A DNA stretch of 64,000 nt from Deltaproteobacteria bacterium ADurb.Bin207 (GTDB lineage Bacteria; Myxococcota_A; Polyangia; Polyangiales; Polyangiaceae), in NCBI GenBank assembly GCA_002070115.1, contig MWCO01000015.1, positions 1 through 64,000 of the forward strand. Direction: 5' to 3'. The notes under the pieces are model-generated. The model saw nothing but the letters and a program-made list of their open reading frames with translations, ran no database searches and was not told the origin of the DNA. The translations under genes were made by a program, and so were the position numbers. Positions 8,726-32,676 of this stretch are shown in pieces; positions within the stretch are counted from its first letter, which is position 1; every line of letters begins with the position of its first letter.

Positions 8726-10777
8726 GTGCGCTCCATTCGTTTGGCGTTCATCCTACCCCTGCTACCGCTGTTTTGCTCCTCAGAGCCAACGATCATCCAG
8801 GCCGCGGAGAAAAAACCTTTCAATGTCCGCGACCTCGTGCAGCTCGAACGGGCCTCCAGCCCCGTGCTCTCCCCCGACGGACGATCCGTCGTTTTCGTCC
8901 TGCGAACGACCGATATGGAAGCGAATAAAGGACGCACGGACCTATGGATGATGAGCACCGACGGCAAAAACATGCGGAGGCTCACTACCCATGAAGCCAA
9001 CGACTGGAACCCTCGATGGATGGGCCCCAAAACCATCGGCTTTCTATCCACTCGGTCGGGATCGTCACAAATCCATGCTCTCGAAATCGATGGCGGTGAA
9101 GCTCGACAACTCACAAGCCTTCCCATCGACATCGAGACATTCCAATCCACACCAGACGGTTCGCTCATCGTTTTTAGCGCAGCCGTCTATCCGGAATGCA
9201 AAACGATCGAATGCACCGTCGAGAAAGACAAAAAAATCAAAGAATCCAAAGCCACCGGCCGCGTCTATGACAAGCTGTTTTTCCGTCATTGGGATACGTG
9301 GAAGGATGGAAAACGCAACCATCTTTTCGCTCTGCGCACCACCGGAGGCGAGCCAGTCGACTTGATGAAAGGACTCGACGCCGACTGCCCGTTGCTTCCT
9401 TTCGGAGGAATCGAAGATTACACCATCGCCCCTGACGGGCAGAACGTCGCGTTTTCTATGAAAAAACCAATGGGCAGCCAGGAGGCCTGGTCGACCAACG
9501 ACGACATCTGGCTTGTCCCCACCGATGGTTCCGCATCGCCAAAAAATATTTCAGAAGCCAACGAAGCACGAGACTCAATGCCCGTGTATTCCCCAGATGG
9601 GAAAAGCCTTGCTTATCTTGCGATGAAACAGCCGGGCTACGAGGCAGATCGTTATCGTGTGGTGTTGTACGACCTTGCCTCGGGTTCGCAGAAAGTGCTG
9701 ACGGAAGCATGGGATCGTTCCCCGGATTCTCTTACGTTCGGCGCCAAAGGAGCCCGTCTTTGGGTCACCGCCGACCACTTCGGCCAACACTCCATCTTCT
9801 CGATCGATGTGCGTTCGGGAAAAGAAAAACTCGTGATCAAAGACGGCAGCAACAGTTCGCCGATGGAAACCGATCGGGGCGTTTTGTATCTCCGCAATGA
9901 TTTGCGTTCCCCGGCTGACTTTTTTGTTGCGTCAGCGTCGGGAGGCAACGAACGACGACTATCCACCATCAATCAAAAACGTTTGGAATCCGTAGGATTC
10001 GGGGATGCAGAACCCTTTTCCTTCCAAGGAGCAAAAGGAGATACCGTCTACGGATATGTGGTCAAACCCGTCGGATTCGAAGCAAACCAAAAGTATCCAA
10101 TCGCGTTTTTAATCCACGGAGGCCCCCAAGGCTCCTTCGGAAACTCTTTTCATTACCGATGGAACCCGCAAACCTATGCAGGCGCGGGCTATGCCTCCGT
10201 CATGATCGACTTCCATGGATCCACCGGATACGGACAGGCTTTCACCGATGCCATCCGCGGCGATTGGGGCGGCGCACCTTTCGAAGACCTCATGAAAGGC
10301 CTCGACGCGGCTGTCGCAAAGTATCCTTGGCTCGATGGTCAGCGAGCTTGCGCCCTCGGCGCTTCCTACGGCGGCTATATGATCAATTGGATCGCAGGCC
10401 ATACCGACCGGTTCAAATGTTTGGTCGCCCATGACGGCAACCTCGACGAGCGCATGGCCTACTTTGACACCGAAGAGCTATGGTTCCCCGAATGGGAACA
10501 CCAAGGTACCCCGTGGGAAAACCCCGAGGGATACGCCAAACACAATCCCATCGACCACGTCAAAAACTGGAAAACTCCGATGATGGTCGTGCATGGTTCG
10601 TTGGATTATCGCGTCGTCGATACCCAAGGATTCAGCGTATTCACCGTGCTTCAACGCAAAGGCATCCCCTCCAAACTCCTGCACTTCCCCGACGAAAACC
10701 ATTGGGTACTCAAACCCCATAATAGCATTCTATGGCACGATGAAGTGCTTGGTTGGCTGGACCGATGGCTCAAATAA
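8726..10777 (+). CDS. Secreted S9-family serine peptidase (acylaminoacyl/dipeptidyl peptidase-like)
   Basis: A 683-residue protein with a signal peptide (residues 1 to about 27; a Cys at 17 could also be a lipobox). It has a seven-blade propeller with TolB/DPP-like strands (LSPDGRSVVFV, YSPDGKSLAYL) and a C-terminal alpha/beta hydrolase. The catalytic triad is visible: nucleophile Ser547 in GASYGGY, Asp627 in SLDYRV and His659 in ENHWV. HGGP forms the oxyanion loop. Such enzymes cleave short peptides, here probably in the periplasm or outside the cell. The GTG start has GGAGG five bases upstream. It stands alone; the next gene converges. Confidence 0.88.
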   Translation: MRSIRLAFILPLLPLFCSSEPTIIQAAEKKPFNVRDLVQLERASSPVLSPDGRSVVFVLRTTDMEANKGRTDLWMMSTDGKNMRRLTTHEANDWNPRWMGPKTIGFLSTRSGSSQIHALEIDGGEARQLTSLPIDIETFQSTPDGSLIVFSAAVYPECKTIECTVEKDKKIKESKATGRVYDKLFFRHWDTWKDGKRNHLFALRTTGGEPVDLMKGLDADCPLLPFGGIEDYTIAPDGQNVAFSMKKPMGSQEAWSTNDDIWLVPTDGSASPKNISEANEARDSMPVYSPDGKSLAYLAMKQPGYEADRYRVVLYDLASGSQKVLTEAWDRSPDSLTFGAKGARLWVTADHFGQHSIFSIDVRSGKEKLVIKDGSNSSPMETDRGVLYLRNDLRSPADFFVASASGGNERRLSTINQKRLESVGFGDAEPFSFQGAKGDTVYGYVVKPVGFEANQKYPIAFLIHGGPQGSFGNSFHYRWNPQTYAGAGYASVMIDFHGSTGYGQAFTDAIRGDWGGAPFEDLMKGLDAAVAKYPWLDGQRACALGASYGGYMINWIAGHTDRFKCLVAHDGNLDERMAYFDTEELWFPEWEHQGTPWENPEGYAKHNPIDHVKNWKTPMMVVHGSLDYRVVDTQGFSVFTVLQRKGIPSKLLHFPDENHWVLKPHNSILWHDEVLGWLDRWLK

Positions 10778-10884
10778 GCACTGCGCATATCCCTTCCGCT
10801 AACCAAATACGGATTGCCATCGGCAAATATATAACTACTTGAAACTACACGAAAAGTTTCGATCGTGTATCCGATGTCGAGCCG
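10778..10884. other. Convergent intergenic region with short hairpin
   Basis: TTGCC-ATC-GGCAA at 10814-10826 is a short perfect stem followed by AT-rich sequence and may help end transcription of the peptidase gene. TTGAAACTACA at 10839-10849 is one of four similar intergenic elements in the window. Confidence 0.3.
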
Positions 10885-11127
10885 TCAATCCGCAGCTCCG
10901 GCATCCTTCGCTCCGCTCCCACCGAAGATCCGAGGTATCGCCGGCCCGGCTGGCTGCGCAGAGGAAGCTGCAGGAGCCGCCGACGATGCAGTCGTCGTGG
11001 CTGGGGTGGCCGGTGCTTCCTGCTGCTGTTGCTGCTGCTGCTCCGGTGGCGGAGACTTGACGATGAAGCATCCTGCCACCGATGCCGAGAATACCAGAGC
11101 CAGACCGATGAGCATGAACCTGTTCAT
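10885..11127 (-). CDS. Small lipoprotein with poly-Gln run
   Basis: An 80-residue protein with a signal peptide ending in SVAGC, so Cys20 is the likely lipid anchor. The short mature part has seven consecutive Gln, then Ala/Pro/Thr/Ser-rich low-complexity sequence. AAGGA lies about nine bases before the ATG. It may be a periplasmic spacer or peptidoglycan-linked lipoprotein; no domain is visible. The Gln run is coded by a CAG-type repeat (reverse strand of 11020-11042), prone to slippage. Confidence 0.65.
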   Translation of the reverse strand: MNRFMLIGLALVFSASVAGCFIVKSPPPEQQQQQQQEAPATPATTTASSAAPAASSAQPAGPAIPRIFGGSGAKDAGAAD

Positions 11128-11244
11128 GATGCCATATCCTTGTCGCTACGATGGGCTCCGACGTCTGACCGTAACCCAATCCTTTCCCCATGCTGTCCCT
11201 TGCGGTTCTCGTTTGTCAACGTTAGCTAGTTTCGACAAGGGATC

Positions 11245-13770
11245 ATGCAACCCTTCCCCATCGATTCCATCCTGCAAGACCTTGAAACCGCGCTACAAAT
11301 TCATCCGAGGGCCATCGTGCAAGCCCCCCCGGGTTCAGGAAAAACCACACGCGTTGCCCCCTATCTCGCCTCCCGGGAAAACGGCCATGTCATCGTGCTC
11401 GAACCTCGACGACTCGCTGCAAGACTCGCCGCGCAACGCGTCGCAGAAGAAAGAAACGAATCCATCGGAAAAACCGTGGGCTACCACGTGCGCTTCGACT
11501 CCACCATTCGCCCTTGTACCCGCATTCATTACGTCACCGACGGCGTCTTCGTTCGCCAACTGCTCGCGAACCCATCGCTCGATGGAATCGAAACGGTCGT
11601 CATCGACGAGTTCCACGAAAGGCGATTGAACACCGATTGGATTCTCGGATGGTTGCTGAACCTTCAACGCACCCTACGCCACGACCTGAAAGTCGTGGTG
11701 ATGTCAGCCACCCTCGATTCCCACGCGCTGACACGATACCTCGAGCCCTGTAGCCAACTTCAAACGCAAGGAAAGCAATTCGACGTCGCCATTTCTTTTT
11801 CGAATACGCCCGACAGCCGCCCCCTTGCTCTACGCGTGGCCTCCGCCGTCAGATCCCTGGCCCAGCAGGGTCTCGACGGTCATCTCCTGGTGTTTCTTCC
11901 CGGTGCCGCGGAGATTCGCGAGACGCAACGGGCTTGTGAACCCATTGCCGAACGCTACCATCTCGATACTTTCGCCCTCCACGGAAGCATGCCTTCGGAG
12001 GAACAAGACCGCGCCGTGGCTCCCAGCGCCACACCAAAAATCATCCTATCGACGAATGTCGCTGAAAGTTCGATTACCATCGAAGGAATCGCGGCGGTCA
12101 TCGACAGCGGGCTGGCTCGGGTGGCCGGCCATGCTCCCTGGTCAGGCCTGCCCACGCTAAATACCCTGCCCATTAGCAAGGCATCCGCAATCCAGCGGGC
12201 AGGTCGCGCCGGACGAACGAGGCATGGACAGTGCATTCGCCTGTTTTCCGAAGCCGATTGGATGCGACGTCCCGACCATGATCTTCCCGAGATCCAACGA
12301 GCCGATCTCGCGGAAGTAGCCTTGGTTCTTCGAGGATTGGGCATCCAGTCTTCCGATGCATTCCCCTGGCTCGACCCGCCAGCGCCCAATGCATGGGCCG
12401 CGGCGGAAACCCTTCTCGGGGACCTCGGAGCCCTTCGACATGATGGTTCACTATCCGAAACGGGACAACAACTCCTTCGCTTTCCCGTCCACCCCCGGAT
12501 CGCAAGAATACTGCTTGAAAGCGAACGGCGAGGTGTCGCCGACCAAACCGCTACCGCCGCGGCTTTGATGACCGAAAAACACCTCATGACTCCTCGTCGC
12601 TTTTCTTCCCACGCTCACCAAGGCCCCCACCGCAATCCGTCCGCCAACCTCATCGACGCCCTCGATCACTTCCATGGCCGATCGGCGCGATCCGTTGCGG
12701 AGCGTTCGGACCACGCACCCGCCTGCGATGACTTCGCAAGGCGAGAACTGGACAAAGTACGTCGTGCTCTGCTCTCTGTCGTCCATGCATCCACTCCCGC
12801 CCCCGCAAACCAGGAAGAAGCCGTGGCATGTTGTGTGCTGACGGGCTATCCGGATCGGGTGGCAAGAAAAGTCCGCGGACGTCTCGTTACGCTCACGGTG
12901 GGAGGCAATGCCTGGGTCGATTCGGAAGAAGAAAACGTGCCGAATTTTCTTGTGGCCATCGATGCGCAACAATCGCAGGAAGGCATGAATCGACGACTGA
13001 TCGTGCGCTCCTATTGTGCGATCGATCCGTGGCACGTGCTTGACCTTTTCCCCGACCGAATCGAAGAGATGACAGAATACCGCTGGAACGAATCGACGGA
13101 TTGTGTGGAAACGATTGAGCGATGGCTTTACCGAGGGCTCGTCCTCGACGAAACACGGTTGGCACGCGTCGCTTCTGAACAGGCTTCCCACGTGCTCGCG
13201 GAACACGTTCTCGCGCTGGGGCCCCATGCGTTTGCGCCGGAACGCGAATTGACGGCTCTGCTTGGGCGTGTGGACTTGTTGCGAAAACTTGGACTGCCGA
13301 TGCCAGCACTGGATATGCGCGTCGTTCACGCCGTGCTTCGCGAAATTTGCGAAGGAAAACAATGTCTTAGCCAGGTTCGGGAAGCTGGGTTGATGCAGGC
13401 GTTGCAGGGGATGCTTTCTTCGCAACAGCGGCAAATGATGGAGCTTATGGCACCGAAAACCTTGCGGCTGCCGTGCGGCAAAGAACTCGAGATTCATTAC
13501 GAAGTCGGTCAACCCCCGTGGGCCGCGTCGAGGCTGCAGGATTTTTTTGGAATGACGCAAAGTCCCCGGGTAGCGGAAGGAAAAGTAGCGGTGACACTGC
13601 ATTTGTTGGCACCGAATCAAAGGGCGGTGCAGGTCACGCAAGACCTGGAAAGCTTTTGGAGCCTTCATTATCCGAAACTTCGGGGACAGCTCAGCCGACG
13701 TTATCCGAAACACGCCTGGCCCGAGGATGGCCGAAAAGCGCGCCCTCCAGCTCCGGGCAGACTCCGGTGA
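11245..13770 (+). CDS. hrpB: ATP-dependent helicase HrpB
   Basis: The 841-residue protein is a DEAH-box helicase of the HrpB type. Visible motifs are Walker A PPGSGKTT (near residue 28), LEPRRLAAR (Ia), DEFHERRLNTD (II), VVMSATLD (III), STNVAESSITIEG (V) and QRAGRAGR (VI). The HA2-like and HrpB C-terminal regions follow, ending in LRGQLSRRYPKHAWPEDGR, the family's usual end. HrpB proteins act on RNA and DNA, but their role is still poorly defined in most bacteria. Length is normal. It is monocistronic, 180 bases before the marR-pirin operon. Confidence 0.93.
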   Translation: MQPFPIDSILQDLETALQIHPRAIVQAPPGSGKTTRVAPYLASRENGHVIVLEPRRLAARLAAQRVAEERNESIGKTVGYHVRFDSTIRPCTRIHYVTDGVFVRQLLANPSLDGIETVVIDEFHERRLNTDWILGWLLNLQRTLRHDLKVVVMSATLDSHALTRYLEPCSQLQTQGKQFDVAISFSNTPDSRPLALRVASAVRSLAQQGLDGHLLVFLPGAAEIRETQRACEPIAERYHLDTFALHGSMPSEEQDRAVAPSATPKIILSTNVAESSITIEGIAAVIDSGLARVAGHAPWSGLPTLNTLPISKASAIQRAGRAGRTRHGQCIRLFSEADWMRRPDHDLPEIQRADLAEVALVLRGLGIQSSDAFPWLDPPAPNAWAAAETLLGDLGALRHDGSLSETGQQLLRFPVHPRIARILLESERRGVADQTATAAALMTEKHLMTPRRFSSHAHQGPHRNPSANLIDALDHFHGRSARSVAERSDHAPACDDFARRELDKVRRALLSVVHASTPAPANQEEAVACCVLTGYPDRVARKVRGRLVTLTVGGNAWVDSEEENVPNFLVAIDAQQSQEGMNRRLIVRSYCAIDPWHVLDLFPDRIEEMTEYRWNESTDCVETIERWLYRGLVLDETRLARVASEQASHVLAEHVLALGPHAFAPERELTALLGRVDLLRKLGLPMPALDMRVVHAVLREICEGKQCLSQVREAGLMQALQGMLSSQQRQMMELMAPKTLRLPCGKELEIHYEVGQPPWAASRLQDFFGMTQSPRVAEGKVAVTLHLLAPNQRAVQVTQDLESFWSLHYPKLRGQLSRRYPKHAWPEDGRKARPPAPGRLR

Positions 13771-13891
13771 TGCACGGTCTGCTTGCTCGAAGTTACCGCT
13801 AGTCATCGGCCGACCGCTGGCCTTCCCTGCGGAATATGCGCTAAATTCGCTCATTTCAGAACTCTTTCCCCGGGCTCGGGGGTCGGCACCC

Positions 13892-13919
13892 TTGACGATC
13901 CACCCGACCCAATTATCTT
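13892..13919 (+). promoter_or_regulatory. Promoter of the marR-pirin operon
   Basis: TTGACG at 13892-13897 and TATCTT at 13914-13919 are separated by 16 bases. The -10 box lies within the left arm of the palindrome at 13912-13933, so a bound repressor would block polymerase. Confidence 0.5.
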
Positions 13920-13933
13920 GACGTAAAGATAAT
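13912..13933. promoter_or_regulatory. MarR-type operator palindrome
   Basis: ATTATCTT and AAGATAAT are perfect 8-base arms around the spacer GACGTA. Known MarR-family boxes often have this TATCTTGA-type dyad. It is 19 bases before the regulator's start, so the gene probably represses itself and the pirin gene behind it. Confidence 0.75.
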
Positions 13934-13952
13934 TTCAAACAAGACGATTGGC

Positions 13953-14450
13953 ATGGCAGAGCGGCTTGAACACAAGCAATCTCAATCCGTCAGCGGCGTT
14001 CACCTGTGGCTGCTGTTGTGGAAGGCGACCAAAGCGCAGGAAGCCTATGCGCGACGCAGCGTGGAGGCCACCGGGCTTTGTTTGACGGACTTTGGAATTT
14101 TGGAGGCGCTTTTGCACAAAGGGCCGCTTCCGGTGAATACCCTTGGAAAAAAGATCCTTATTTCCAGTGGGTCCATGACGGCGGCGGTGGATCGTTTGGA
14201 GCGGCAAGGACTGGTCGAACGCCGGGATTCCACAACAGACCGACGAATACGCATGGCGCACCTAACACCCAAAGGAGAGGCGTTGATTCGACCGCTTTTC
14301 ACCGTTCATGCGCGGGATATGGAACAAGCTTTTTTTCCTCTCGCGCCGTCGGAAAGGGCGGCTTTAGCGGAACTGTTACGCAAACTGGCGTCCCCCACTC
14401 CGCGACAAGCGCCCCGCAAACCTGCACGAACACGACCTTCAAGGAGCTAA
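13953..14450 (+). CDS. MarR-family transcriptional regulator
   Basis: A 165-residue winged-helix regulator. Residues about 45-115 hold the DNA-binding part, with the recognition region ISSGSMTAAVDRLERQGLVER and the wing DSTTDRRIRMAHLT. MarR proteins bind palindromes as dimers and leave them on binding aromatic or electrophilic compounds. The operator lies immediately upstream and the pirin gene starts two bases after the stop, so the regulator probably controls that operon in response to oxidised or electrophilic compounds (inference). No clear redox Cys: the only Cys is in TGLCLTDFG. Confidence 0.9.
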   Translation: MAERLEHKQSQSVSGVHLWLLLWKATKAQEAYARRSVEATGLCLTDFGILEALLHKGPLPVNTLGKKILISSGSMTAAVDRLERQGLVERRDSTTDRRIRMAHLTPKGEALIRPLFTVHARDMEQAFFPLAPSERAALAELLRKLASPTPRQAPRKPARTRPSRS

Positions 14451-14452
14451 TT

Positions 14453-15373
14453 ATGTGGGTCCAGACAACACAGAACCATCCCATTTCTTCGGCATCGGCT
14501 CTTTCGAGGCCAATCGAAGGCATCTACAAAGCCCCTCCGCTTCATTGGGTGGGCGACGGCTTCCGCGTGGCGGGCTATTTCTCATCGATTCCCGATGCAT
14601 TGCGCAAGCTCGACCCCTTTCTCTTGCTCGATTACCATCCGGCCCATACCTACAGCCCCACGGACCGTCCCCGCGGGGTTGGGGTGCATCCCCATCGTGG
14701 GTTCGAGACGGTGACGATAGCATTTCAAGGAAGCGTGGCGCATCACGATAGCACGGGGGCCGGAGGGGTTATCGGCCCGGGAGATGTGCAATGGATGACG
14801 GCAGCTTCGGGAATTTTGCACAAAGAATACCATGAAGCCGGGTGGGCCGCCCAGGGGGGACCCTTCCAGATGGCGCAGCTTTGGGTAAACCTTCCCAAAG
14901 CGCATAAAATGGATCCGCCCCAATATCAGCCCATCGTAGCCAACCAGATGGGGGTCGTATCTTTGCCCGAAAACGCCGGGGAAATCCGGGTCATCGCTGG
15001 CGAAACCTTTGGTGTGAAAGGCCCCGCCAAAACCCATACCCCCATTAGCTTGCTCGACGTTCGTCTCCACGCCAAAGGCCACCTCGCCTTGCCTTTTCCT
15101 TCGAGCTACAACGTCGGGATGCTCGTCATGCAAGGCGAGGCAAGGCTCGGCGAAACCCATACCATCGTCCAACATGATTTCGTGGTGTTCGAGCATTCCG
15201 ACGACCCAATCCGCATCGAAGCAGCTAGCGATACGCAACTTCTTATGCTTGCCGGAGAACCGATACGAGAACCTGTGGTATCCTATGGGCCTTTCGTCAT
15301 GAATACAGAGCGGGAGATTCAACAAGCTTTCGCCGACTTCCGAAGCGGGAAATTCGGTCACCTCGAGGATTGA
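14453..15373 (+). CDS. Pirin family protein
   Basis: A 306-residue bicupin. The metal-binding motif GVGVHPHRGFETVTIAFQG and a later HHDSTGAGG give the His residues of the N-terminal cupin, followed by the pirin C-terminal domain. Pirins bind iron and some act as quercetin dioxygenases or as redox-dependent regulators. The ATG at 14453 has AAGGAG eight bases upstream. It is translationally close to the MarR gene (two-base gap), a pairing seen in many bacteria, and is probably induced when the MarR repressor releases. Confidence 0.9.
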   Translation: MWVQTTQNHPISSASALSRPIEGIYKAPPLHWVGDGFRVAGYFSSIPDALRKLDPFLLLDYHPAHTYSPTDRPRGVGVHPHRGFETVTIAFQGSVAHHDSTGAGGVIGPGDVQWMTAASGILHKEYHEAGWAAQGGPFQMAQLWVNLPKAHKMDPPQYQPIVANQMGVVSLPENAGEIRVIAGETFGVKGPAKTHTPISLLDVRLHAKGHLALPFPSSYNVGMLVMQGEARLGETHTIVQHDFVVFEHSDDPIRIEAASDTQLLMLAGEPIREPVVSYGPFVMNTEREIQQAFADFRSGKFGHLED

Positions 15374-26518: not shown

Positions 26519-27259
26519 TTAAAACCCAATTCGACGCATGACGAAGCGAGGTAACCATCGGATGACCCGCATGACCCACGCCCAAACGGGGGGCGAATAC
26601 ACGAGCGGTTTTCCGCGGTCCATGGCGCGAATCACTTGGGTCGCGACGCGGTCGGGCGTTCCCGCGAAAGGAGGCGGCTGGAGCGCGGCGGTCATCTCCG
26701 TACGTACGAAACCGGGTTTGACGCAAAGCACGGAAAGGCCATGCGCGTGGAATTTATGGTCGAGCGCTTCGAGGTATGCGGATAAACCGGCCTTGCTCGC
26801 ACCATAGATGGCGACAGGCTTGCGTCCTCGGTCTCCGGCTACCGAAGAAAACACGCAAAGCCTTCCTCCTCCGCGTGCAAGCAGCCGTTTTCGAGCGTGT
26901 TCACAAAATAGGACCGTATTGGCAAAGTTGGCGGTAACCAGGCGTTGGGTAAGGTCCACATCCGCTTCGAGAGCCTCTTGGGTAGCGAAAAGCGCCGCCG
27001 TAACAATCACGGTGTCGAAGCCCCCAAGGGCGGCGTCGGCAGCATCCAAAGCTTCCGAAAACCCTTCGGGACGCAGCAAATCGCAAGGAGCGAAAGCCAC
27101 ATCGACCTTATCGGGATGTCGAGCTACCAGGTCCGCCGCGCTTCGCTCGAGGTTTTTTTTGCGGGGGCCTAGCAAAAAAAGCAGATCACCCCGTTCTGCA
27201 AGGCGACGAGCGATTTCACGCCCCATACCGGAGGTACCACCAAGGATGACAGCTTTCAT
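26519..27259 (-). CDS. DprE2-like short-chain dehydrogenase
   Basis: A 246-residue SDR. GGTSGMG (residues 7-13) is the dinucleotide loop; the Ser of FSSVAG and IYGASKAG provide the catalytic Ser-Tyr-Lys. The C-terminal half (SVLCVKPGFVRTEMTAAL, then WVMRVIRWLPRFVMRR) matches the pattern I recall for mycobacterial DprE2, which reduces the 2-keto sugar of decaprenyl-phospho-ribose to arabinose. Its start overlaps the stop of the DprE1-like gene by the sequence ATGA, supporting the pairing. GGAG precedes the ATG. The true sugar and lipid carrier in this organism are unknown. Confidence 0.82.
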   Translation of the reverse strand: MKAVILGGTSGMGREIARRLAERGDLLFLLGPRKKNLERSAADLVARHPDKVDVAFAPCDLLRPEGFSEALDAADAALGGFDTVIVTAALFATQEALEADVDLTQRLVTANFANTVLFCEHARKRLLARGGGRLCVFSSVAGDRGRKPVAIYGASKAGLSAYLEALDHKFHAHGLSVLCVKPGFVRTEMTAALQPPPFAGTPDRVATQVIRAMDRGKPLVYSPPVWAWVMRVIRWLPRFVMRRIGF

Positions 27260-28581
27260 GGGCAATCTCCAAAAAGGCGGACGGATTGCGCGCTGCGTAG
27301 CCGTCCGGACGGATCCCATTTTTTCTTCGTCTGAAGGAAACCTGGAAGACGAGGTTCCATCGCTCGAAAATGATCGGGCCGGGTAAATCCATCTTTCGTG
27401 AGGTAGATCCGACCGCCAGCAGCGATCACCAGCTCGTTCAACCGGTCCACGATCCCCTGAATATCCGGCGAAATCGCCATATCCACCGCAATGGAGGTGC
27501 CCTCCAGGGGGAAAGAGAGGGTGCCCGAGCCCTCAGGCCCACAGTCTTTGATGACGCAAAGGGGAGAGGGGGAGCCGAGTTTGACCAAACGCTGGAGAAA
27601 TTCGCGAACCGCGGCTGGACCCGCCGCACGCGGCAAAACGCACTGATACTGCGTAAATCCCCTTGGACCGTAGGCTCGATTCCAATGCAAGATGGCGTCG
27701 AGGGGGTAGAAAAACGGGTCCGGAGCCACGAGCCGCTCTCGTCGTTTTCGCCAATGACTCCAATAATACAAGGCGTTGAAAGCACGAGCGGTCCAGCGAT
27801 TCAGCACGAAGTTCGGCAACTCGAAAGGCAAAGACCGCTCAGCGGCGGTTTTGAAGGCGGCGCCACCGGTTTGCTCGACGGAGGCCCAACGCCCCGCCAT
27901 CAGAATCCCGCGCCCAAGGGACGAACCGCGGCTAAGACAATCAATCCAGCCCATCGTCATCGGCCATCGCAACGCCGCCTCCGCAAGGCCGTCGAGAAAC
28001 GCCTCAATGCTGCTCATTCGGCTGCTTTCCATCCAGATCCACGGACTCGGGATGGGTCCCATCGCGAATTCCACCTCCAAAATATGCCCGAGCAATCCCA
28101 TCCCCCCAATCGAACCGTAAAAAAGGTCGGGATGAACGTTGGGACTGCATTCGACAATATCCCCATCGCCCAGCCGAATGCGTAGCGCCCGAACGTGTTC
28201 GCCAAAGCATCCTTGCCGATGGTGGTTTTTCCCATGCACATCGCTCGCGACCATGCCACCGAGGGTGACGAACTTCGTTCCGGGGGTGATGGGAGGAAAC
28301 CAGCCCCGAGGCAGGAAAAGCCGGTTGATTTGCGCCAGACTCAGCCCCGCTTCCGCCCGAAGAACACCGCTGCCGGGGTCGAAGCCGAGAATTCGGTCCG
28401 CCATAAGAGAGTTTGCAACCCGATCGTCGGGCCGAGCCGGCAAGGAACAATCACCATAGGACCGGCCCAGCCCCCGTGACAAAACCGCTTTCGCCGTAAG
28501 GGACTCGAGATCACAGGAAACCACCTCCCGCCCTGGCATGGCTAGGCGCCCCCACCCTTCAAGGGTCATCGTTGCGCTCAT
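27256..28581 (-). CDS. DprE1-like FAD-dependent sugar oxidase
   Basis: A 441-residue vanillyl-alcohol-oxidase-type flavoprotein. FAD-binding RGLGRSYGD is at residues 36-44, and ASDVHGKNHH ends at His121. NRAYGPRGFTQYQ and SFPLEGTSIAVDM follow the DprE1 pattern. His116 aligns with the conserved HGKNHH motif and Lys396 with the catalytic Lys of DprE1. Ala365 occupies the place of Cys387, the residue attacked by benzothiazinones. DprE1 oxidises the 2-hydroxyl of polyprenyl-phospho-ribose. The gene overlaps both neighbours by four bases, so all three are translationally coupled. Confidence 0.85.
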   Translation of the reverse strand: MSATMTLEGWGRLAMPGREVVSCDLESLTAKAVLSRGLGRSYGDCSLPARPDDRVANSLMADRILGFDPGSGVLRAEAGLSLAQINRLFLPRGWFPPITPGTKFVTLGGMVASDVHGKNHHRQGCFGEHVRALRIRLGDGDIVECSPNVHPDLFYGSIGGMGLLGHILEVEFAMGPIPSPWIWMESSRMSSIEAFLDGLAEAALRWPMTMGWIDCLSRGSSLGRGILMAGRWASVEQTGGAAFKTAAERSLPFELPNFVLNRWTARAFNALYYWSHWRKRRERLVAPDPFFYPLDAILHWNRAYGPRGFTQYQCVLPRAAGPAAVREFLQRLVKLGSPSPLCVIKDCGPEGSGTLSFPLEGTSIAVDMAISPDIQGIVDRLNELVIAAGGRIYLTKDGFTRPDHFRAMEPRLPGFLQTKKKWDPSGRLRSAQSVRLFGDCP

Positions 28582-29633
28582 GCTTCAGCCTCCTTTCGCG
28601 CGATGAGCGCTTCCGCTCCGGCAGGGTCCCGCTTGCTTTCGAGCAGCGCTCGGAGCACAAGAGGCGCAACAAGAGTCGCATCCGATTCGATGACGAACAT
28701 CGGCGTGTCCTCGGTCAGCTTGTCCCAGGTGATTTTTTCGTTCGGCGTGGCTCCCGAGTACGAACCGTAGGAGGTCGTGGAATCGCTGATTTGGCAGAAA
28801 TACGCCCAGGGCTTCGCGGACTGCCCGACATCGTGCTTGAGGGAAGGTACGACGCAAATGGGAAAGTCTCCAGCAATACCACCGCCGATTTGAAAAAAAC
28901 CAACCCCAGGACCTGCGGAAAGAGCTTGGTATTGCTCATAGAAGGCCACCATATATTCGATACCTGATTTTACGATATTCGCATTACATTCACCGGATTT
29001 TACGTATGATGCAAATATATTTCCATAGGTGGAATCTTCATAACCGGGCACGACAATGGGCAAGCGTCGACGCGCCGCCTCCAGCAGCCAACATGCCTCG
29101 GGATCCCCTTCATAAACGCTTAGTTCGAGCGCTTGAACCAAATCGTAAAAATATTCATGCCAAAAGCGCCGGACCCCCACCTCGCTAGCATGCTTCCACA
29201 TCGGTACGATTCGCGCTTCGACAGCACGAAATGCCTGATCCTCGGGGATCGTGGTGTCCGTCACACGCCGCTTCCGGCTGGCAAGCAGAAGCGAATCGTC
29301 TCGTTGGCTCAGATAACGGTAGTTGGCAAAATCCTCATATCCACGATGAGCCACAAGGCGAAACAAGGATTCTTCGAGATTGGCTCCGGTTACCGAAAGA
29401 CCATGAATGAGACCTTCTCGAATCGCTGGCGCAAGGCAAATGCCAAGCTGTGCCGACGACATAGCACCAGCCATTGCCCAAAACATTCGCCCCCCCGCAA
29501 CGATATGCCGACGGTAGGCAAGGATGGCATCGCGGGTGGCGCGAGCATTGAAATTCTTATAGTGGGTAAGGACGAAATCAAGAATCGGAAGGTTGGGCTG
29601 AAGCACGCTGGGCCTCCTGCTACGAAGGAACAT
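28578..29633 (-). CDS. Deoxyhypusine synthase-like protein
   Basis: From ATG 29633 the product has 351 residues with the deoxyhypusine-synthase fold. GAMSSAQLGICLAP and LSVTGAN are in the NAD-binding half, QIGGGIAGDFPICVVPSL is the bacterial version of the glycine motif, and ITWDKL places Lys305 where the enzyme's catalytic Lys sits in eukaryotes. Eukaryotic DHS transfers the aminobutyl group of spermidine to eIF5A. Bacteria lack eIF5A, and some homologs make homospermidine or other polyamines. No ribosome site is evident at 29633, so the start is uncertain. First gene of the operon with the DprE1- and DprE2-like genes. Confidence 0.85.
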   Translation of the reverse strand: MFLRSRRPSVLQPNLPILDFVLTHYKNFNARATRDAILAYRRHIVAGGRMFWAMAGAMSSAQLGICLAPAIREGLIHGLSVTGANLEESLFRLVAHRGYEDFANYRYLSQRDDSLLLASRKRRVTDTTIPEDQAFRAVEARIVPMWKHASEVGVRRFWHEYFYDLVQALELSVYEGDPEACWLLEAARRRLPIVVPGYEDSTYGNIFASYVKSGECNANIVKSGIEYMVAFYEQYQALSAGPGVGFFQIGGGIAGDFPICVVPSLKHDVGQSAKPWAYFCQISDSTTSYGSYSGATPNEKITWDKLTEDTPMFVIESDATLVAPLVLRALLESKRDPAGAEALIARKEAEA

Positions 29634-30857: not shown

Positions 30858-31233
30858 GCCTCTGGATAGCATAACGACTGGCGCTTGTGACCCCCTGCCG
30901 AACCGTGGACGATAGGATCGGTTCTCGAAAGGGATACCATGAATCGCCGCGAGGCCCCCCGCGGTTCCATCTCATAATAATTATAAAATCAATTATTTAT
31001 GTTATTTTCATTCCCCTCGGCCTCGAATCGTCGCAAGCCCATGCCATCCTCAAAACCAACGATGCTCAAGCGGGCCAGCGCATGCCCGGATCACAAAAAT
31101 CATCTTTATTTACAAATGGTTATCTATTCACCGACAGTCTTTGGACGCTCCTATCGTTCACCTTGCGCGAATTACGCCCTCTCGCGCCCTCCTCCTTTTT
31201 GTCAAACCGCGCGCCAACAGCTACCCTTTGAGG
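30858..31233. other. Divergent promoter region with AT-rich inverted repeat
   Basis: No independent gene is supported. AATAATT and AATTATT at 30976-30997 flank eight bases and form a perfect 7-base inverted repeat in a very AT-rich stretch, 119 bases upstream of the epimerase start. The right part may code for the extreme N-terminus of the VanW protein if a TTG at 31141 is used. Confidence 0.4.
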
Positions 31234-32676
31234 GTGCCTCCCCCTCACTCACGAAAGACCCCATGGCTTCGTGTCTGCCTCTGGCTGGGACTCCTGGCCT
31301 TTTTGTTCACTGGCGTTTCTCTCGTCGCGATAGCGTTTGTCGTCTTGCCCGCAGAAGGTTGCCCAGCTCATGGGCTTTTCGTGGGTTCTCATCTTCCCCC
31401 TTCTGACCCACCGTTCGGTTCCTGGCTCGAACAGCGGCGTCAGCGGCTCTCGCAAGAACCGGTGTTGCTCGTATACGGCATGGATTCCTATGAAACCACG
31501 CTCGGGGAGCTGGGAATCGAAGTCGACGTGGCCGCAACCATGGCCGATGCTCTTCGATTCGGTCGGGAACCGTCCGTCGCCCAACGCGCACGCACCTTGT
31601 ATTTAGCTCGAAACAGCTTGATCGACGTGCCGCTATCCTATTCCATGGATATGCGTCGCGCGCAAATCACCTTGCGACCTTTCGCGCAGCAGGTGCGACG
31701 GGCACCGGTCAATGCTTACGTCAACCTTACGGAGCATGCTCGAATCGCTGATATTCCGGGTGCGGAGTTGGATTTGGAAGCCACCGCGGCCTCGATGATG
31801 CAAGGCGTGCTTGCCGGTGAGCGAGCTTTCCTCGTTCATACCCGGCCCATTCGCGCTCAGGTCACCGAAGCCGATCTGATGGCCGTCGACGTCACCCGCG
31901 TGGTATCGACCTTCGAAACGCGATTTACCACCTGGGGAGAAGGCCACGGGCGTTCCCGCAACATCGAACTTGCCGCCGGCTCGATCGACGGCATGGTGCT
32001 GATGCCGGGGCAATCCTTCTCTTTCAATGAAGTCGTGGGACGCCGTTCTTTGGAGGCCGGATATGTGTGGGCCCCCGTCATCGTGGGCGACGAGATGCGT
32101 CCTGGGGTGGGAGGAGGCATTTGCCAGGTAGCGAGCACCTTGTACGCTTCCGCCCTGTTGGGTGCCCTACAAATCACCGAACGATGGGCCCATGGCCGTC
32201 CATCGAGCTACACCCGTATGGGCCTCGACGCCACGGTAGCTTATCCATCCAAGGACCTGCGTTTCGTCAATTCGCTGCCCTATCCTGTGATTCTCCACCT
32301 GCACTTTCCGGAAAAAGGGGTATTGCGAGCGGAAATCCTTGGGGGCGAACCGATTGCCAAGGTGCGCTACTCCTACGGCGTTTCCCGAACGATGCCTTTC
32401 GTGCGACGTATCGTCTCCGTATCCTCTCTCGCCCCTGGAACGGCAAAACGAAAACAGAAAGGAATTCAAGGGTATTCCGTCGTTTCGGTGGTGGAATTGG
32501 ACTTTGGTTCGCGCGTGGATAAAAGGGTTTATCACTCGGAATACCGTCCAACACCGGAAATTTTTTGGGTGTCCCCGGACTACGACCTGTCCGCGCTGCC
32601 GGAGCTTCCCAAAGGTGCCAAAGGAATAGAGGAAAAAATCACGGAAGCCGAGCAGGAATACGATCCAACCGGATAG
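31234..32676 (+). CDS. VanW family protein, membrane-anchored
   Basis: Read from GTG 31234 the protein has 480 residues; TTG 31141 would add 31, and neither has a clear ribosome site. An N-terminal helix (CLWLGLLAFLFTGVSLVAIAFVVL) anchors it. A region up to about residue 215 resembles the peptidoglycan-binding domain before VanW. The VanW domain follows: RSRNIELAAGSIDGMVLMPG, SFNEVVGRR, GGGICQVASTLYASAL and VAYPSKDLRFVN. VanW domains occur in envelope proteins, including a vancomycin cluster accessory, with no known activity. A probable periplasmic cell-wall protein. Confidence 0.85.
   Translation: MPPPHSRKTPWLRVCLWLGLLAFLFTGVSLVAIAFVVLPAEGCPAHGLFVGSHLPPSDPPFGSWLEQRRQRLSQEPVLLVYGMDSYETTLGELGIEVDVAATMADALRFGREPSVAQRARTLYLARNSLIDVPLSYSMDMRRAQITLRPFAQQVRRAPVNAYVNLTEHARIADIPGAELDLEATAASMMQGVLAGERAFLVHTRPIRAQVTEADLMAVDVTRVVSTFETRFTTWGEGHGRSRNIELAAGSIDGMVLMPGQSFSFNEVVGRRSLEAGYVWAPVIVGDEMRPGVGGGICQVASTLYASALLGALQITERWAHGRPSSYTRMGLDATVAYPSKDLRFVNSLPYPVILHLHFPEKGVLRAEILGGEPIAKVRYSYGVSRTMPFVRRIVSVSSLAPGTAKRKQKGIQGYSVVSVVELDFGSRVDKRVYHSEYRPTPEIFWVSPDYDLSALPELPKGAKGIEEKITEAEQEYDPTG

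Follow-up and report, generated by a model that had tools for sequence, protein, structure and literature searches.

A homologue of deoxyhypusine synthase (DHS) is followed by relatives of DprE1 and DprE2 on the minus strand of the window analysed here, the 64,000-nucleotide stretch from position 1 of contig MWCO01000015.1 of Deltaproteobacteria bacterium ADurb.Bin207 (Polyangiaceae). The question that this arrangement raises is whether the three proteins serve a single pathway or are only made together. The explanation that we favour, with moderate confidence, is one transcription unit holding two separate small metabolic modules, a homospermidine synthase and an arabinose-lipid cassette.

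Both gene junctions read ATGA, as the initial annotation had reported, and each start is preceded by a Shine-Dalgarno-like stretch (Table 1). From the overlaps we infer that the three genes are carried on one messenger. Translation of the DHS-like gene probably begins at the GTG rather than at the ATG, since AGGAGG lies 6 nt upstream of the former and the N-termini of relatives fall at about that point. This start gives a protein of 342 aa and renumbers its catalytic lysine as Lys296.

Table 1. Features of the three-gene unit, in positions of the window (SD, Shine-Dalgarno-like stretch).
Feature	Position	Strand	Remark
DHS-homologous gene	28578..29606	minus	likely GTG start at 29606, 342 aa; alternative ATG at 29633; SD AGGAGG 29618-29613
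Catalytic-type lysine codon	28719..28721	minus	Lys305 counted from ATG, Lys296 from GTG
DprE1-like FAD oxidase gene	27256..28581	minus	441 aa; SD AAGGAGG 28595-28589
DprE2-like short-chain reductase gene	26519..27259	minus	246 aa; SD GGAG 27270-27267
ATGA overlap, DHS-like stop / DprE1-like start	28578..28581	minus	read from sequence; TGA 28580-28578, ATG 28581-28579
ATGA overlap, DprE1-like stop / DprE2-like start	27256..27259	minus	read from sequence; stop 27258-27256, ATG 27259-27257; region conserved in 11 other operon loci

A gene for an NAD-dependent epimerase (30872-29895) lies upstream of the DHS-like gene. It was considered as a fourth member of the operon and left out because of the gap of 261-288 nt (depending on the DHS start) and because it is absent beside DHS at the other operon loci. 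A terminator-like hairpin is found behind the epimerase gene, but shuffled sequence yields such hairpins at least as often. Divergent from the epimerase gene, positions 31141-32676 on the plus strand encode a protein that by eye resembles VanW. At two loci of Sorangium cellulosum (L097 and L103) an NAD-epimerase gene is located directly downstream of DHS, at the place taken by DprE1 in other loci, and its product is 25% identical to the upstream epimerase of the window.

The DHS-like assignment of the first protein held. In a profile search it scores 106.4 bits against PF01916 (cut-off 27), and its AlphaFold2 model (pLDDT 90.3, pTM 0.89) adopts the DHS fold (versus 1dhs, Z 27.6 and rmsd 2.9 Å over 292 residues), with approximately 16% identity to eukaryotic/archaeal deoxyhypusine synthase in the structural alignment. 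The residue annotated as a catalytic-type Lys305 does align with Lys329 of human DHS and does not vary among 92 close relatives or 16 more distant ones, although its number is probably 296, given the GTG start. Equivalents of human Trp327 and Glu323 are likewise kept in the subfamily. Human Asp243, His288 and Asp316, on the other hand, are replaced by Asn205, Phe257 and Tyr292 (ATG numbering), which are invariant in the relatives, and these replacements weaken the proposal that the DHS homologue uses spermidine.

The subfamily spans about ten phyla at ∼70-80% identity, and 175 of 351 positions are nearly invariant. This degree of constraint is unusual for a small-molecule enzyme and, together with the fold and the catalytic lysine, would suit a protein that modifies a protein lysine, as eukaryotic/archaeal DHS does. 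We nevertheless regard that function as improbable: the three human residues are replaced, the neighbours of the Candidate-Phyla relatives make polyamines, and SpeY-type homologues of DHS function in making homospermidine (PMC9992855).

These neighbours were seen at three Candidate-Phyla loci. In Nomurabacteria (L099) the DHS-type gene has an arginine decarboxylase-like gene on one side and an agmatinase gene on the other, and at another locus (L113) an arginine decarboxylase-like gene is found nearby upstream, with AguB and AguA directly after the DHS-type gene. Published speY clusters likewise contain arginine decarboxylase, agmatinase or AguA-AguB, SpeY being a homospermidine synthase homologous to DHS that is known from Anabaena, Pelagibacter and others (PMC10407285, PMC9992855). 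Given the arginine decarboxylase and the agmatinase or AguB-AguA beside these relatives, the likeliest identity of the DHS-like protein is that of a SpeY-like homospermidine synthase, with substrate and product predicted from sequence. In the window itself DHS adjoins the DprE genes and not putrescine-pathway genes; the same genome encodes an agmatinase that is 45% identical to that of L099. Myxococcus xanthus (L040), which makes homospermidine lipids (PMC9548883), carries the same DHS type. Our main reading is weakened by the score of the DHS-like protein against the SpeY-type model NF001980, 92.9 bits, which is its best NCBIfam match and still far below the cut-off of 450, although a model score is no biochemical property, and by the polyamine neighbours coming from three loci only.

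The main alternative to homospermidine synthesis is agmatine coupling, in which there would again be two modules, but the DHS-like enzyme would use agmatine or a mixed substrate and yield a guanidino-polyamine. CdmS of Thermus thermophilus couples agmatine and is devoid of equivalents of human Asp243 and Asp316 (PMC10981699), positions that are also replaced here, by different residues. We consider this alternative unlikely, as agmatinase or AguA-AguB, which accompany the DHS relatives, consume agmatine for putrescine, and as the guanidino-polyamine model PRK02492 gives 54.7 bits, below the 92.9 bits of PRK00770.

The genome of the window encodes two further DHS paralogues (G000 C48:17131-18060, L001/L235, and C107:7648-8598, L002/L236), which are 22-24% identical to the DHS-like protein described above. 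They are nearer to PRK00805-type deoxyhypusine synthase models, yet below cut-off, and have Trp and Leu at the positions of His288 and Asp316. A second DHS subfamily from other Myxococcota (L018-L033) is ∼50% identical and shows the same Asn/Phe/Tyr signature, with Gly for the Asp that precedes the catalytic lysine.

The relationship of the second protein to DprE1 was borne out. The oxidase scores 325.6 bits against the DprE1 model NF053785 (cut-off 500) versus 33.1 bits for the next model, that of a lactone oxidase, and neither DprE-like protein groups with aldonolactone oxidases. DprE1 structures are also its best structural matches (E 7e-66) for the oxidase. The equivalents of DprE1 His132, Lys134 and Lys418 are His116, Lys118 and Lys396 and are invariant in the 12 operon copies, while the position of Cys387 is occupied by Ala in all 12 (mycobacterial numbering for the DprE1 residues). 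The annotation of the reductase as matching DprE2 likewise held; it scores 211.4 bits against PRK07102 and 154.8 bits against the DprE2 model NF053786 (cut-off 250), both below the curated cut-offs, and has the cofactor motif GGTSGMG and the YxxxK motif as YGASK. Because the scores fall below the NCBIfam equivalog cut-offs, we describe the DprE1-like and DprE2-like proteins as family relatives and not as certified equivalogs. Several genomes hold a second PRK07102/DprE2-like reductase, ∼30% identical to DprE2, beside the DprE1-DprE2 pair (L043 11088-11948, L053 11113-11853, L066 11211-11966, L215 2232-2972 and L221 6135-6884).

The genome of the window encodes a phosphoribosyltransferase of the DPPR-synthase family (C1:56853-57716; 240.6 bits, cut-off 207). 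Its gene precedes a CAAX-protease-like gene and then that of undecaprenyl diphosphate synthase; a GT-C protein encoded ∼4 kb further on (L234:13631-15244) matches the AftB model NF041481 weakly (41.7 bits, cut-off 1050). Polyprenyl-phosphate pentofuranose systems of Gram-negative bacteria use the same steps, with DprE1/E2 homologues where the glycan contains arabinofuranose (PMC11127046). The presence of a polyprenyl-phosphate phosphoribosyltransferase in the same genome makes lipid-linked arabinofuranose plausible in this organism. Among 329 Myxococcota genomes, 280 have a phosphoribosyltransferase match and 194 a DprE1-family match, most of the latter below the curated cut-off, which only one match passes. 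In most of the Myxococcota examined, DprE1-DprE2 forms a two-gene cassette in varied surroundings without DHS. Within 7 kb at locus L234 (G000 C1), genes for a phosphoribosyltransferase (8775-9743), undecaprenyl diphosphate synthase (10554-11324) and the AftB-like GT-C protein (13631-15244) may form an arabinofuranose locus that is separate from DprE1/DprE2.

The three-gene order extends beyond this contig. The DHS protein was scanned against 84,980 species genomes and the best 80 of the 338 relatives obtained were retained; the order DHS-DprE1-DprE2 on one strand recurs in 11 of these 80, which are the closest relatives and not a random sample, several of the carriers being close kin. The carriers belong to two phyla (three Polyangium, three other Myxococcales and five Acidobacteriota). 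The junction between DprE1 and DprE2 is conserved across the operon loci, mostly as an ATGA overlap, and that between DHS and DprE1 is a short overlap in some loci and a spacing of up to >100 nt in others. The recurrence of the order and the conservation of the DprE1-DprE2 overlap region indicate that the linkage is more than chance. Among the matches listed for the 329 Myxococcota genomes, direct adjacency of DHS and DprE1 was seen only in the window's own genome; in one other (G066) the two genes are 15 kb apart on the same contig and strand. An all-against-all comparison of the flanks of the DHS relatives found no conserved neighbour besides DprE, and its largest groups were antisense or overlapping frames of DHS itself. 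No DHS relatives were found on plasmids or phages at E 1e-5, and in the genome of L060 the search for a DprE1 on the contig of DHS showed no overlap.

The operon state is scattered on the DHS tree: the best tree needs six changes, and its well-supported branches by themselves require no fewer than four, so that a single clade of operon DHS proteins is not supported. All 12 operon DprE1 proteins group within a clade of 23 members that has full support, and for DprE1 a single origin may have been followed by losses. A DprE1 with 66% identity or more to that of the window occurs in seven of the 33 genomes that have this DHS type, and it adjoins DHS in six of the seven, which is a count and no test, since six of the 33 genomes were chosen for having the operon. 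Polyangium y55x31 has DHS and is devoid of DprE1 in its genome; it is missing a 5.9-kb block that in Polyangium 15x6 starts right after the DHS stop. Polyangium 6x1 also has the block. We infer that the cassette became attached to the DHS gene and has since come or gone as one piece, which fits both the tree and the indel data.

Scattered adjacency with at least four changes, and linkage in six of the seven co-occurring genomes, could reflect a functional tie. In a joint pathway, the polyprenyl-linked pentose or its glycan would receive an aminobutyl (polyamine) group from the DHS-like enzyme, which would yield a polyamine-decorated arabinofuranose. The tight overlaps in the window, the retention of the gene order in two phyla and the side-by-side position of DHS and DprE1 in nearly all genomes with both are consistent with this pathway. 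Most DHS relatives, however, have no DprE beside them and the Polyangium y55x31 genome has none at all, DprE1-DprE2 pairs usually occur without DHS, and the comparison of operon with non-operon relatives found no active-site residues peculiar to the operon copies of DHS. These observations favour co-expression or co-transfer, and we consider the joint pathway highly improbable. Shared expression or co-transfer also explains repeated adjacency and usual separateness with fewer assumptions. Of the two readings offered by the initial annotation, that of genes that are only co-regulated is thus favoured, whereas a polyamine-modified pentose glycan is disfavoured. It is equally hard to credit that the operon makes an arabinofuranose lipid bearing an aminobutyl or homospermidine arm supplied or transferred by the DHS-like enzyme; if true, such an arm would be a new way of placing positive charge on an outer-surface glycan.

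In the two-module explanation that we prefer, the NAD-dependent DHS homologue would oxidise putrescine, hold the aminobutyl imine on its lysine and hand it to a second putrescine, as suggested by its fold, the catalytic Lys, Trp and Glu, the loss of three human substrate-site residues and the polyamine neighbours of its relatives. The DprE1-like and DprE2-like proteins would oxidise and re-reduce C2 of polyprenyl-phosphoryl-ribofuranose, giving polyprenyl-phosphoryl-arabinofuranose to feed an extracytoplasmic glycan; the family, the active-site residues, the conserved overlap and the phosphoribosyltransferase were observed, and substrate and end glycan are predicted. No chemical step would need both modules. 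The DHS gene and the DprE1-DprE2 cassette would have come together and afterwards been transferred as one, some lineages retaining them. The linkage is real and probably reflects joint expression or joint transfer. It is unreported in the literature searched, where no paper names both deoxyhypusine synthase and DprE1.

If this is right, a distinct DHS subfamily of about ten phyla gains a testable role in homospermidine synthesis, which would help to define the polyamine pathways of myxobacteria, Acidobacteriota and Candidate-Phyla bacteria. The DprE genes would also point to a widespread, little-studied lipid-linked pentofuranose in Myxococcota, and the recurring but non-obligate linkage, including the Polyangium without the DprE block, offers a natural comparison between joint function and joint travel.

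Among known systems, SpeY resembles the DHS-like protein in being a DHS homologue with the catalytic lysine and in its gene context, since arginine decarboxylase, agmatinase or AguA-AguB are encoded beside relatives of the DHS-like protein. The likeness is drawn through model score and gene context, and the DHS-like protein differs in the score (92.9 versus the 450-bit cut-off) and in the DprE neighbours of the window. CdmS of Thermus thermophilus, compared by residues, is also a DHS homologue without the human Asp243 and Asp316, but has Phe and Leu where the subfamily of the window has Asn and Tyr. Eukaryotic/archaeal deoxyhypusine synthase shares the fold, the catalytic lysine and the Trp327 and Glu323 equivalents, in contrast with the replacement of Asp243, His288 and Asp316 and the identity of ∼16%. 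Mycobacterial DprE1-DprE2 is likewise an oxidase and a reductase from adjacent genes, with equivalents of His132, Lys134 and Lys418; the proteins of the window differ in scoring below the equivalog cut-offs, in the Ala at the position of Cys387 and in being encoded by overlapping genes behind a DHS gene. The Gram-negative pentofuranose systems (PMC11127046) also combine a phosphoribosyltransferase with DprE1/E2 homologues for arabinofuranose outside Actinobacteria, whereas in the genome of the window the parts lie apart from one another and the GT-C protein is only a weak AftB-like match.
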